A stretch of DNA of 33,615 nucleotides from Verrucomicrobiota bacterium (GTDB lineage Bacteria; Auribacterota; JABMQX01; JAFGEW01), in the NCBI GenBank assembly GCA_016931415.1, contig JAFGEW010000001.1:1-33615 (forward strand), written 5' to 3'. Each line of letters starts with the position of its first letter. Position 1 is the stretch's first letter. This document shows positions 30,614-33,615 of this stretch, one piece after another. Position numbers and translations under genes: made by a program. The notes under the pieces were generated by a model, which saw nothing but the letters and a program-made list of their open reading frames with translations, was not told the DNA's origin and did not search any database.

Positions 30614-31384
30614 ATGAAGATCGACGACGTGGTCATTGTGCTCGTGCGGCCGAAGGTGCCGGGCAATATCGGCAGCGCGGCGCGCGGTATGAAGGTGATG
30701 GGCCTGAGCGAGCTGCGCCTCGTGCAGCCCGAGGCCGATCACCTCGCCGATGACACGCGTTGGCTCGCCTACGGCTCCGAGGACGTGCTCGAACGCGCGC
30801 GCCTGTTCGACGACATCCCGTCCGCCATCTGCGATTGCAGCATCCGCATCGCCACGACGCACCGCTCGGGCCGGCGCCGCCAGGTGACCAAGACGCTGCG
30901 TGAATATGCCGCCGAGGCCGCCGCGCTGGCCGACGGCACGCGCCTCGCGCTCGTCTTCGGCAACGAGGAGCATGGGCTGTCGAACGACGAGCTGGCGCTG
31001 TGCGACATCGCGCTCACCGTGCCGCAGGCGGTCGACTACCCGTCGCTCAATCTTGCGCAGGCCGTCGTCGCCGTCTGCACGGCGCTCTATGGCGAGATCG
31101 TCGCGTCGAAGGAGAACCGCACACCGAGACTCGCCACGCCCACCGAGACCAACGACCTCTACGAGCGCATGGAGAGCGCGCTGCGCTGCCTCGGCTACCG
31201 CGACGTGCCCGACCGCAACCTGCTCAGCTCTGCCCTGCGCACGATCAAGCGTCTGTTTGCCCGCGCCGCGCTCCGCTCCGGCGAAGCCCGCTCGCTCCAC
31301 GGCGTCTTCCGCCGTGTCGAGATTCTGGCGGAGAAGAAGGGCTTGGATGATGGCGATGAGGACGTACCGGACACATCGGTTTGA
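30614..31384 (+). CDS. trmJ: TrmJ-type tRNA (cytidine/uridine-2'-O-)-methyltransferase, SpoU family
   Basis: The 256-residue SPOUT enzyme probably methylates the ribose at position 32 of the tRNA anticodon loop, using S-adenosylmethionine. Motif 1 is VRPKVPGNIGSAARGMKVMGL (residues 11-31), motif 2 is LALVFGNEEHGLSNDEL, and motif 3 is PSLNLAQAVVAVCTALYGE, which together build the trefoil-knot cofactor site. Its length is close to E. coli TrmJ (246), and the C-terminal helical extension of TrmJ is present. The ATG at 30614 follows AAGGG; the frame extends upstream but crosses dispersed repeats. The downstream broken nfi gene starts within its last 38 bases. Confidence 0.93.
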   Translation: MKIDDVVIVLVRPKVPGNIGSAARGMKVMGLSELRLVQPEADHLADDTRWLAYGSEDVLERARLFDDIPSAICDCSIRIATTHRSGRRRQVTKTLREYAAEAAALADGTRLALVFGNEEHGLSNDELALCDIALTVPQAVDYPSLNLAQAVVAVCTALYGEIVASKENRTPRLATPTETNDLYERMESALRCLGYRDVPDRNLLSSALRTIKRLFARAALRSGEARSLHGVFRRVEILAEKKGLDDGDEDVPDTSV

Positions 31385-31990
31385 CGTGGACTACCACGCG
31401 GCTGTGGCGATCCGGGAGGAACTGCGCCGCGAGGTGGTGCGGAGCGCTGAACGGCGTTCGGCTTGTGGCCGGAGCGGATGTGTCGTACGCGAAGCGGGCC
31501 GTGACGATGTATACGGCGGTGGTCGTGGTGGTCGAGTGGCCGTTGGGTGGGGTGGTCGAGGAAATGACGGCTGAGCGGGCGGCGGAGGTTCCGTGCATTC
31601 CGGGGCTGTTGAGCTTCGGCGAGATGCCGGCGCTCTCTCGCGCGTTTGAGAAGCTGCGGACGAGGCCCGATGCGATCATCTGTGATGGCCATGGGGTCGC
31701 GCATCCGCGCGGGTTCGGGCTCGCGTCGCACCTCGGCGTGCTGCTCGACGTGCCGACCGTCGGATGCGCGAAGAGCCACCTCGTCGGCGAGCACGCCGAG
31801 CCGCGGCCGGAGAAGGGCGCGCAGACGCCGCTCACGTTCGATGGCAAGACCATCGGCGCCGCCGTCCGCACGCGTGCGAACGTCAAGGGGAGTGCGGCGT
31901 CGAGCAGGCGGCCTTCGACCCGTCGTCCGCGCGCGCACGAACGTCAAGCCCGTCTATGCGTCCGTTGGCCACAAGGTGAGCCCGCGCAGC
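31347..31990 (+). pseudogene. nfi: Endonuclease V, frame-disrupted
   Basis: Endonuclease V cleaves DNA or RNA near deoxyinosine or inosine. Its pieces occur in three frames. The start, MMAMRTYRTHRFDVDYHAAVAIREELRREVV, lies from 31347. After a one-base shift near 31440-31460, GVRLVAGADVSY, CIPGLLSFGEMPAL and DGHGVAHPRGFGLASHLGVLLDVPTVGCAKSHL follow, retaining the metal-binding acidic residues in ADVSY, FGE and CDGH. After base 31887, a 61-base insertion flanked by imperfect direct repeats shifts the frame again, and VRARTNVKPVYASVGHKVS resumes downstream. Then a REP-like element begins and the usual C-terminus is missing. It overlaps trmJ by 38 bases. Either a real pseudogene or, for the first shift, a sequencing error. 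Confidence 0.8.
31863..31948. repeat. Imperfect 25-base direct repeat with 61-base period inside nfi
   Basis: The 25 bases at 31863-31887 and at 31924-31948 match at 22 positions, both ending GAACGTCAAG. They bracket 36 unrelated bases. Removing one period (61 bases) restores the nfi reading frame from the conserved AAVRTRANVK to PVYASVGHKVS, so the extra copy looks like the inserting event. Confidence 0.75.
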
Positions 31991-32188
31991 GGGCGACATC
32001 TTGTAGCCACGGGTGCCAACCCGTGGATAGCGAGCGCCGCAGATACGGGAACCCCCGCAGGGGGTGGCATATGGTCCTGGGTGGCTTGGAGCAGATGCCA
32101 CCCCCTGCGGGGGTTTTCTCGGCGCGTTGTTCACGCCCTCCACGGCCTCACGGCCGAGGCTACATCATGCCGCCCGCTGCGCGGGCTC
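31978..32188. repeat. REP/BIME-like palindromic element with inverted ends
   Basis: The 31 bases at 31978-32008 are an inverted copy of 32158-32188 with three mismatches, each containing the palindrome CCCGC-N3-GCGGG type. Just inside each end is a second hairpin preceded by GTAG in the outside-to-inside direction: CCACGGGT/ACCCGTGG at 32007-32026 and, inverted, a CGGCC/GGCCG hairpin at about 32142-32156. A GTAG tetranucleotide next to a hairpin is the signature of REPs mobilised by RAYT (TnpA-REP) transposases. The two REPs face each other, as in a BIME. No RAYT gene is in the window. Confidence 0.65.
32050..32115. repeat. 21-bp perfect inverted repeat in the centre of the palindromic element
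   Basis: The 21 bases at 32050-32070 are the exact reverse complement of 32095-32115, around a 24-base loop. Each arm is itself a palindrome of CCCCC/GGGGG type. TTTTC follows on the plus strand, so it might also terminate transcription from trmJ/nfi. Confidence 0.8.
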
Positions 32189-32223
32189 CGGCGTTGCGCG
32201 CTGCGTGGGCTCTGGCGTTGCGC
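32176..32223. repeat. Two tandem 24-base repeats
   Basis: The 24 bases at 32176-32199 are repeated at 32200-32223 with two differences. The first unit overlaps the right end of the palindromic element. The repeats lie in the noncoding gap between the broken nfi gene and the convergent glycosidase gene. Confidence 0.75.
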
Positions 32224-32283: not shown

Positions 32284-33615
32284 CTACTGCGTTACCTTCC
32301 GGTACGTGATCAAGTCGGAGCGGAGGGGTTCGGGAAGCGTGATCGGCCACTGCTCCATGAACGCGGCGCCTTTGAGGCGGACCGTTTCGCCGGTGCTGTC
32401 GAAGTGCAGTTCATAGGTCGCCTCGGGGTCGAGGCCGCGGAGCCTAACCTCGACGGTGGCGTCGGGGCTTTCGGCGTGCCGGAAGACAAGCAGCATGCCT
32501 TCGTCGAGGTCGGTGCGATGGTACTGCGAGCCGGTCCATTCCTTCGGGTCGCGCGAGTAGGGCAGCAGAGGATGCCACGCGCCGATGAGCAGGTGGCGCA
32601 CGGCGCGATACTTCTCGACGAGCACCTTGGCGCGCGCCATGTCGAACTCGGGATCGTCGGCGATCCAGCCGAGGCACAGCGACGACGCGAGCGTGGAGTG
32701 GAACGAGTAGTCGTCGAGCCGGATGAGGTGGGCGACGACGGTGTTGTTGGGCAGGTACTGGCTGAGGCCCCAGAGGCTGGCCTGGTCCACGTCGTCGTCG
32801 AACCAGTAGTCGGTCTTCTGGTGGATGTGCATGCGCATGACGGTCTCGAGGTCGATGCGCCGCCCGCCGCTGGCGCATTCCTCGAGCAGGGCGTCGGGCC
32901 AGGTCGCGGCGATGCGGTCCCAGTAGGCGTAGAGGCCCTCGACGTAGCGCATCTCGGTGATGCCCCGGCGGTCGGGCGCGTCGTTGGCGCGCCAGTACGG
33001 CAGCGGGTCCATGTTGAAGTCCTGGCGGTAGAAGCGGAAGCCGGGCAGTTTCATGAAGCCTTCGACGATGGCGAAGAAGTAGTCGCGCACCTCGGGCCGG
33101 CCGAAGTCGGCGAGGAAGGTGACGTCGTCGGGGTTGCCGTTGTTGAGGCACCAGTCGGGGTGCTCGGCGTCAACTGACGTGCCGCGCACGACGCGCTCGG
33201 GCTCGAACCATAGCCCGTAGATCATCCCCTCGGTCTTCGCCGCGGCGGCGACGGGCCCCATGCCGTTCGGGTATTTCTCCGGGTCGGGCGTCCAGTTGCC
33301 GGCGCCCATCGGCCAGCCGCCGATGAACCATCCGGCGTCGGTCAGCATCGCCTCGAGGCCGAGCGTGCCGTAGGCCTTGATGAGCGAGATCTGGTTCTCG
33401 GCCGTGCACTCGTTGAGCCAGCCGCCGCCGCGCGTGAAGCACGTGTTGCAGAAGAGCGTCGGCAGCAGCCGCTTGCCGCTGCGGCGCGCGGCGTAGTGCT
33501 TGTAGATGAGCTGGCGGAACTGCGCCTTCGCTTCGTGCGCCGCTTCGTGCGCCGCTTCGTGCGCCGCTTCGTGCGCCGCTTCGTGCGCCGCTTCGTGCGC
33601 CGCTTCGTGCGCCGC
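32284..33615 (-). CDS. GH36-like alpha-galactosidase (N-terminus beyond the window)
   Basis: The visible C-terminal 443 residues form a TIM barrel and C-terminal beta domain of a glycoside hydrolase clan D enzyme, most like GH36 alpha-galactosidases. Motifs include LTDAGWF, GLWFEPERVV, the nucleophile strand FRFYRQDFNMDPL, and the acid/base segment EECASGGRRID. The frame stays open from the internal Met at 33346-33348 up to the window edge, with sequence (FCNTCFTRGGGWLNECTAEN) that fits the start of the barrel, so the gene is longer than that Met suggests. The N-terminal beta-sandwich is not visible. The last visible stretch reads as tandem AAHE repeats. The TAG stop lies in a GGCTAC sequence also found in the REP-like element nearby. 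Confidence 0.85.
   Translation of the reverse strand, partial: AAHEAAHEAAHEAAHEAAHEAAHEAAHEAKAQFRQLIYKHYAARRSGKRLLPTLFCNTCFTRGGGWLNECTAENQISLIKAYGTLGLEAMLTDAGWFIGGWPMGAGNWTPDPEKYPNGMGPVAAAAKTEGMIYGLWFEPERVVRGTSVDAEHPDWCLNNGNPDDVTFLADFGRPEVRDYFFAIVEGFMKLPGFRFYRQDFNMDPLPYWRANDAPDRRGITEMRYVEGLYAYWDRIAATWPDALLEECASGGRRIDLETVMRMHIHQKTDYWFDDDVDQASLWGLSQYLPNNTVVAHLIRLDDYSFHSTLASSLCLGWIADDPEFDMARAKVLVEKYRAVRHLLIGAWHPLLPYSRDPKEWTGSQYHRTDLDEGMLLVFRHAESPDATVEVRLRGLDPEATYELHFDSTGETVRLKGAAFMEQWPITLPEPLRSDLITYRKVTQ
33529..33615. repeat. 12-base tandem repeat (minisatellite) at the right edge
   Basis: CGCTTCGTGCGC is repeated seven times without a mismatch from 33529 and runs into the window edge. On the minus strand it is in frame with the alpha-galactosidase and encodes (Ala-Ala-His-Glu)n in a predicted helix before the barrel. 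The number of copies beyond the edge is unknown. Confidence 0.9.

Follow-up and report, generated by a model that had tools for sequence, protein, structure and literature searches.

The system formed by REPs, REPINs, and RAYTs is one on which Bertels and Rainey reportedly worked in 2011. As described for E. coli and Pseudomonas (Nunvar 2010, PMC2817692), multi-copy palindromes with a GTAG foot on the hairpin occur as inverted pairs (BIMEs or REPINs) and arrays, and stand inverted around a Y1 HUH gene in a REPtron; the motif NP(L/V)(R/K)xG is presented there as peculiar to RAYTs. Tyrosine transposase genes between inverted repeats, which also occur as repeat families and are in some cases "double palindromic", have been described under the names TIRtron and TIRYT (Di Nocera 2013, PMC3733652), and 26 TIRYTs were assigned to subclasses 2.1, 2.2, and 2.5 (Quentin 2018, PMC6006769). 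In the latter classification, TnpA-Y1 subclass 1.2 is entered in Table 1 with "no" for REP, and its range is given as Cyanobacteria and Bacteroidetes. A fourth point of comparison is Acido-Lenti-1 (Rfam RF01687), which is listed among non-coding RNAs, from Acidobacteria and Lentisphaerae (Weinberg 2010, PMC2864571).

The element studied here lies at positions 31978-32188 of the window, the whole 33,615-nucleotide stretch of DNA that was analyzed. With its family it resembles the E. coli and Pseudomonas REPtron in the many palindromes with a GTAG foot, their inverted pairs and arrays, and their inverted placement around a Y1 HUH gene, but has two hairpins (A and B) per unit and, in the wider set of loci surveyed, a foot that ends in AG and is often not GTAG. 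Very probably the element is a gene-less, paired (BIME- or REPIN-like) member of a two-hairpin REP family, its units ordered A, short linker, AG-ending foot, and B, which is served by an IS200-like Y1 HUH transposase, most likely through cutting and rejoining; that the units are mobilized is something we infer.

The element is a 211-base palindrome with the layout A-B-A-core-A'-B'-A' (Table 1), in which A is a 6-bp GC hairpin with the loop GCA and B an 8-bp hairpin whose 5' foot is GTAG. The features on which the original prediction of a GTAG-type REP pair was built are all present: the inverted 31-base ends (31978-32008 and 32158-32188) are identical at 28/31 positions, the central inverted repeat matches at 21/21, and each GTAG foots an 8-pair hairpin. 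In a repeat search, the outer inverted arms could be extended to 55 nt at 78%, and the inner arms to 28 nt at 93%. Folding of the element gave −165.7 kcal/mol (z −10.6), a stability equaled by 0/200 shuffles. A canonical GTAG REP has GT[AG]G lying 0-2 nt 5' of a GC-rich stem of at least 7 bp with a loop of 2-5 nt; the window's unit has GTAG, an 8-bp stem, and a 4-nt loop. A CRISPR or an integron attC site was set aside on anatomy alone. Elsewhere in the window, at 33526-33615, a short tandem repeat (unit like cgcttcgtgcgc) extends into the contig end, which may be an assembly break in a repeat.

Table 1. Coordinates of the palindromic element and adjoining features in the window
Feature	Position	Strand	Evidence
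nfi (endonuclease V) pseudogene; three reading frames, the first for the N-terminus, the second for the core (31456-31887), the third for GHKVS	31350..31977 (start approximate)	+	
Outer A hairpin, stem 31980-31985 / 31989-31994	31978..31999	+	Repeat search, alignment, covariation
GTAG foot tetranucleotide of hairpin B	32003..32006	+	GTAG present in 32/42 aligned units
Hairpin B, 8-bp stem CCACGGGT/ACCCGTGG, loop GCCA	32007..32026	+	Covariation, sequence check
Inner A hairpin, forming the left arm of the central inverted repeat (21 bp, perfect)	32050..32070	+	
Core separating the inner A hairpins; place of the tnpA gene in gene-bearing loci	32071..32094	.	
Inner A' hairpin, forming the right arm of the same central repeat	32095..32115	-	
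Hairpin B', one T:T mismatch among 8 pairs, at stem pair 3; pair 3 unpaired in 20/42 units	32140..32159	-	
GTAG foot of B' (CTAC on +)	32160..32163	-	
Outer A' hairpin	32167..32188	-	
Rfam RF01687 Acido-Lenti-1 match, full model 1-46, 29.5 bits, E 1.9e-4, cut-off 37	32140..32187	+	
Degenerate additional A'-like copy adjoining the element; 24-nt direct repeat, 88%	32196..32219	-	

The palindrome begins where the last conserved Endo V residues, GHKVS, end. This placement had been read as an insertion that probably removed the C-terminus of nfi. The position itself is confirmed, but the element is not the sole cut in the gene, because two other frameshifts are present: the Endo V match spans three frames, with breaks near 31460 and within a partial duplication (31859-31948) whose 29-nt copies, 31859-31887 and 31920-31948, lie 61 nt apart and shift the frame. 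The window holds the sole nfi match in the assembly, and no C-terminal nfi match occurs 3' of the element up to 32700. The comparison drew on Endo V proteins from 5 of 8 loci (none from L095, L097, or L099). Insertion of the element may have removed the C-terminus, but any of the lesions may have come first.

The element has many relatives in its own genome. BLAST returned 103 matches to it in the 4.06-Mb, 134-contig assembly, and a covariance model of the unit (R1) returned at least 129, both results bearing out the expectation of a multi-copy repeat. Forty-nine units score 54.5 bits or more, followed by a gap down to 42.9; these counts are lower bounds, since 150 of 5527 candidates were scored. 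Matches at or below 42.9 bits consist for the most part of lone A hairpins and of a related, second repeat family. Counted from their coordinates, 24 of the 49 units make up 12 full pairs, another 17 belong to arrays or adjoin a pair, and 8 are single or half copies; several arrays reach contig ends, so that unit numbers are again minima. The tandem arrays have a period of about 70-75 bp, and the pairs are oriented ++ --. With 49 units and 12 full pairs, the family has the inverted pairing and the high copy number within one genome by which BIMEs and REPINs are recognized. A chance or single-copy palindrome is excluded by the fold statistics, the 103 BLAST matches, and the 49 units.

The two-hairpin structure was evaluated on a hand-picked alignment of 42 A-B units (A1), from which tandem copies that were nearly identical were excluded, as were weak or partial rows. 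In this alignment 94.2% of cells are paired, two-sided changes occur in 8/14 pairs, and the covariation score is 0.219, as compared with 0.080 for shuffled alignments (0/500 reach the observed value) and 0.02-0.05 for slid versions of the structure. One of five covariation measures, further pair types, was reached by 50/500 shuffles. The foot is GTAG in 32 of the 42 units and GTGG in 2. Two side observations concern repeats in this genome. A second REP family has the same A/GTAG-B plan with different hairpins (L075-L088, e.g., C133:38122, C103:34940, and C86:15305), and some copies were noticed just downstream of stop codons.

Among six Y1_Tnp matches in the window's genome, that on contig C66 alone has A-B family units on both sides: two A-B units 3' of the gene and, 5' of it, five together with a lone A. 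The gene and its units together are a REPtron. A Y1 HUH gene with matching flanks is thus found in the same genome, as the original prediction would have it, and a single copy with no such transposase, the outcome that would have spoken against it, did not occur. The C66 gene is present once, the next relative in the genome being 31% identical, and it is broken: an in-frame TAG stands at a Trp position invariant in nine relatives, where the stop replaces the W of WQ, and DH replaces HH.

The same genome contains other Y1 genes. On C90 (L030, C90:1-1000) there is a second, intact IS200-like gene of subclass-1.2 type with its own flanking hairpin repeat, for which just 4 matches were found in the genome. 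Two class-2-like genes, on C76 (L032) and C27 (L031), raise the alternative that a classical class-2 RAYT mobilizes the A-B family and that the C66 gene is a bystander. The GTAG foot in the window is the canonical RAYT tag, the C66 gene is broken, and both C76 (114.1 bits) and C27 (63.1 bits, under the cut-off of 80) fit the REP_Tyr_transpos model better than C66 does. Neither gene, however, adjoins A-B family units; each has a different inverted flank of its own, a GTAG-tagged hairpin, TGTAGGGCGGGTCGCCCTCGGCCCGCCG, at C76 and AATTAGGGACAGGCA at C27. We regard a class-2 partner as very unlikely, and this part of the original prediction, which spoke of a RAYT-mobilized BIME, does not stand; the BIME-like, multi-copy character and the flanked Y1 HUH gene do.

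Instead, the IS200-like partner has the characters of TnpA-Y1 subclass 1.2, which include WQ, Y---Q--HH, an HUH motif, a length of about 150 aa, a conserved C-terminal tail, and few copies (Quentin 2018, PMC6006769). Where that subclass is defined by DH[IV]H, WQ, Y---Q--HH, and a length near 148 aa, the nine proteins aligned here measure 150-155 aa; H[VI]H, WQ, and Y---Q--HH occur in 9/9, with D before the first H in 7/9. In the broader survey described below, WQ is present in 56/56 proteins and Y---Q--HH in 51/56. The RAYT motif NP(L/V)(R/K)xG is missing beside the catalytic Tyr in the aligned proteins, where 9/9 read Y-I-x-x-Q-x-x-H-H. Seven IS200-like proteins were scanned with family models: against the RAYT model NCBIfam NF047646 (cut-off 80 bits) none exceeded 27.5 bits, while the IS200 model NF033573 (cut-off 55) was passed by 5/7, the exceptions being C90 (45.9) and the 94-aa C66 part (54.2).

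Sequence relatives of these proteins in the PDB are likewise transposases, ISHp608 among them; PDB 2xm3 is presumably ISDra2. IS200/IS605 elements (subclass 1.1) share these relatives and the NF033573 match with the present enzymes, but have non-inverted subterminal hairpins around a mobile tnpA, whereas the flanks here are inverted. In a tree of 50 rows, 49 of them different (Bernardetia appears twice), the IS200-like proteins branch separately from both the ten named IS200 tnpA and the class-2 pair of the window's genome (90/97), a placement to be read with the long class-2 rows, the weak union of the IS200 rows (69/17), the absence of the published subclass 1.2 reference proteins, and a bootstrap that had not settled. 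TIRYTs differ as well, many of them sharing GGGGWSAS (PMC3733652), whereas the present enzymes are of class 1 and go with a foot-tagged hairpin. Judged by motifs, model scores, and tree, the partner is an IS200-like TnpA of subclass-1.2 type and no classical RAYT.

Gene and repeat were followed through 59 genomes, with at most 98 candidates scored per genome, so that the counts are lower bounds. Units reach 42 to 80 matches in each of four genomes (the window's genome, G017, G024, and G031) and do not exceed 4 in any of the remaining 55. At E 1e-6 the gene is matched in 5/59, namely the window's genome, G017, G031, G038, and G018. G031 and G017 are from the window's phylum but from other families, and their genes, which are intact, lie between units of the same kind, here with the foot TTAG, so that three genomes have a Y1 HUH gene with copies of one REP, inverted, on its two sides; the C66 gene groups with these two genes in the tree (81/88). 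G038 and G018 have related genes (one in G038 is 40% identical to that of C66) and nearly no R1 units; their genes are flanked by other repeats and lie elsewhere in the tree. G024, with 75 unit matches but no gene match in an assembly that is 87% complete, is an exception to the co-occurrence.

Inverted flanks proved to be common around such genes. Within the window's phylum, 9/10 have inverted flanks exceeding all 200 shuffles. With the nine-protein alignment as query, 62 of 201 genomes of one other phylum and 22 of 40 of a second gave matches (the phylum of G047 may be Bacteroidota, and that of G055 comprises just 40 species). Sixty loci were returned, chosen by score and not by flank, and their genes were located by HMM; 54 of these (6 partial ones were left out) and two named Bacteroidota plasmid loci make up 56 full-length genes, the Kovacikia match being partial. 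Requiring a flank score above all 200 shuffles and above 28, we found inverted repeats around 42/56 genes, that is, 20/27 and 21/27 in the two phyla and 1/2 on the named plasmids (Persicobacter yes, Bernardetia no). The remaining 14/56, the named Bernardetia included, lack inverted flanks at this threshold. Partial matches passed in 1/7 cases (L181), and similarity over 28 in direct orientation was seen at 10/56 genes. A mononucleotide shuffle is a weak null for GC-rich repeats, and the better controls are windows 750-900 nt away from the genes, of which 0/52 had inverted flanks, and IS200 tnpA loci, with 0/10; one of the latter (Paenibacillus) scored 24 against a shuffle maximum of 22, below the floor of 28.

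The flanks also have a strand-specific foot. Upstream of the gene, an AG-preceded stem occurs on the gene strand in 25/42 flanks and on the other strand in 1/42, and downstream the mirror image is found (25/42 vs. 2/42). GTAG is not kept across this wider set: among the commonest upstream feet listed are xTAG (14), xCAG (5), and xAAG (4), with GTAG itself in 4. These data run counter to the published absence of REPs from subclass 1.2, most surveyed genes having REP-like inverted flanks, which occur in at least two phyla and on a plasmid from Bacteroidota. As to the published range, the test covered the named plasmids, where the two full-length hits are both from Bacteroidota. The automatic REP search in the published classification demanded GTAG or GTGG, and manual inspection was also done (Quentin 2018, PMC6006769). 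Because the feet end in AG but are often not GTAG, a search limited to GTAG or GTGG would miss most subclass-1.2 flanks, and this requirement may be the reason that the REPs of this subclass were overlooked.

Repeats of this type are dispersed within genomes and differ between close relatives. The flank module of one surveyed gene has 47 matches in its own genome (G126), 22 in the congener G155, and none in G175. That of Persicobacter has 16 matches on its plasmid CP012861, arranged as six +/- pairs 171-205 bp apart from start to start, a gene-bearing pair at 625 bp, and one at 2 kb. Between the congeners G031 and G024, orthologous sites were compared in a partial search that covered 693,976 bases of the roughly 3.0-Mb G024 and 86,549 bases from G031. 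At one site, G031 has [A-B]2-A where G024 has just A; at a second, 3' of a stop codon, G024 has a pair that is bordered on each side by additional non-repeat DNA, and G031 has nothing; at a third, the repeat is common to both. Repeats are gained or lost within a genus, and some are inherited. A lone A hairpin common to both genomes (L206 2230-2680) lies just upstream of the likely ATG of the next gene, in whose expression it has a possible role.

How gene-less pairs arise is a related matter. Replacement of the gene by a core fits the window's genome, G126, and Persicobacter on our own reading of the coordinates. As a general origin of pairs it is contradicted by G031, whose commonest gene-less arrangement is the opposite of ++ --, with -- ++ in 10/21 clusters (L068 and L205-L224, one twice-fetched cluster removed).

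Could such repeats have spread passively, by slippage, gene conversion, or hitch-hiking, with no active enzyme? Tandem arrays with a regular period, a site at which unit number differs by whole A-B units, and the clustering of the Persicobacter copies (7/8 pairs, or 14/16 matches, inside about 13 kb) speak for this. Pairs on many contigs, the recurrent link to one transposase lineage in several phyla, and the strand-specific foot argue against it, and we consider passive spread extremely unlikely. For service by the transposase, a mechanism can be proposed by analogy with TnpA of IS200/IS605 and TnpA-REP of E. coli. The enzyme would bind hairpin B and its foot in the folded single strand, would cut nearby through a tyrosine-DNA link, and would rejoin units, so that units and pairs might be copied or moved into single-stranded DNA. 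The analogy extends to the cutting and the movement alike, and A and B would have separate roles.

The A-B unit also overlaps a catalogued candidate RNA. The 46-nt, two-hairpin consensus of RF01687 (hairpin, CUA, linker, second hairpin) is the reverse complement of A-linker-TAG-B. Though the window copy falls below the Rfam cut-off (Table 1), two other units of its genome pass at 42.5 and 37.0 bits, the sole passes among 20 of its own loci searched. Among 20 loci searched at the gathering threshold, just L062 (two matches) and L070 passed, corresponding to both sides of one G038 gene and one G017 unit. In the survey, RF01687 matches at E 0.01 or better lie within 300 nt of the gene in 15/57 loci, 5 of the 15 at the 37-bit cut-off (best 51.7 bits), and L148 and L165 have matches elsewhere in the locus; control loci gave 0/20. 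Hairpin-rich DNA does draw chance matches in this search, as on L141, where two microRNA families matched at E 2.1e-5 to 0.0024 but stayed far below their cut-offs. Group II introns have been noted as neighbors of Acido-Lenti-1. For a single genome, multiple copies have been listed (PMC10059132), and a 2026 pangenome paper describes these "ncRNAs" as perhaps involved in regulating neighboring protease genes (PMC13298647). The passages on Acido-Lenti-1 in these two papers and in its first description (PMC2864571) do not tie it to a transposase, and no published link between the two was found in the open-licence PMC literature.

One reading of this overlap is that selection acts on the unit as RNA, be it a non-coding RNA or a signal for RNA processing or termination, and that its link with the transposase is secondary. 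The RF01687 matches (the window copy, the two copies at cut-off in its genome, and the units beside transposase genes elsewhere) and the covarying structure are in keeping with this, but covariation also fits a DNA hairpin. Furthermore, both orientations of the unit are found, and inverted pairs as well as tandem arrays; units symmetrically flank the transposase gene, and their presence differs between congeners. Selection chiefly as RNA is very unlikely on these grounds, although an RNA and a transposase substrate are compatible and not mutually exclusive.

Because the A-B unit matches RF01687, the Acido-Lenti-1 RNA may instead be the DNA substrate of the transposase. The unit differs from Acido-Lenti-1 as catalogued in that the repeat here brackets transposase genes. 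We find it rather probable that what RF01687 describes is largely no RNA gene; it would be a unit of DNA, made up of A hairpin, linker, AG-ending foot, and B hairpin, that is recognized by IS200-like, REP-serving transposases of TnpA-Y1 subclass 1.2, which had been taken to lack REPs, with lineage and repeats present in at least three phyla.

The original prediction had also held that a GTAG-type pair in this background would widen the known range of REPs, but GTAG repeats were already reported from Cyanobacteria, Chloroflexi, and the PVC group in 2013 (PMC3733652). The noteworthy part is the partner, an IS200-like lineage with two-hairpin REPs that overlap a catalogued candidate RNA. For the source organism, the A-B family may no longer be mobile, because the C66 gene is broken by a stop codon. 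For annotation, the overlap bears on Acido-Lenti-1 entries that are read as ncRNAs near protease genes (PMC13298647). For the transposases, these data give a predicted substrate to a subclass published as having none, and suggest that REP-type systems are not confined to RAYTs but occur also on the IS200 side of the Y1 tree.
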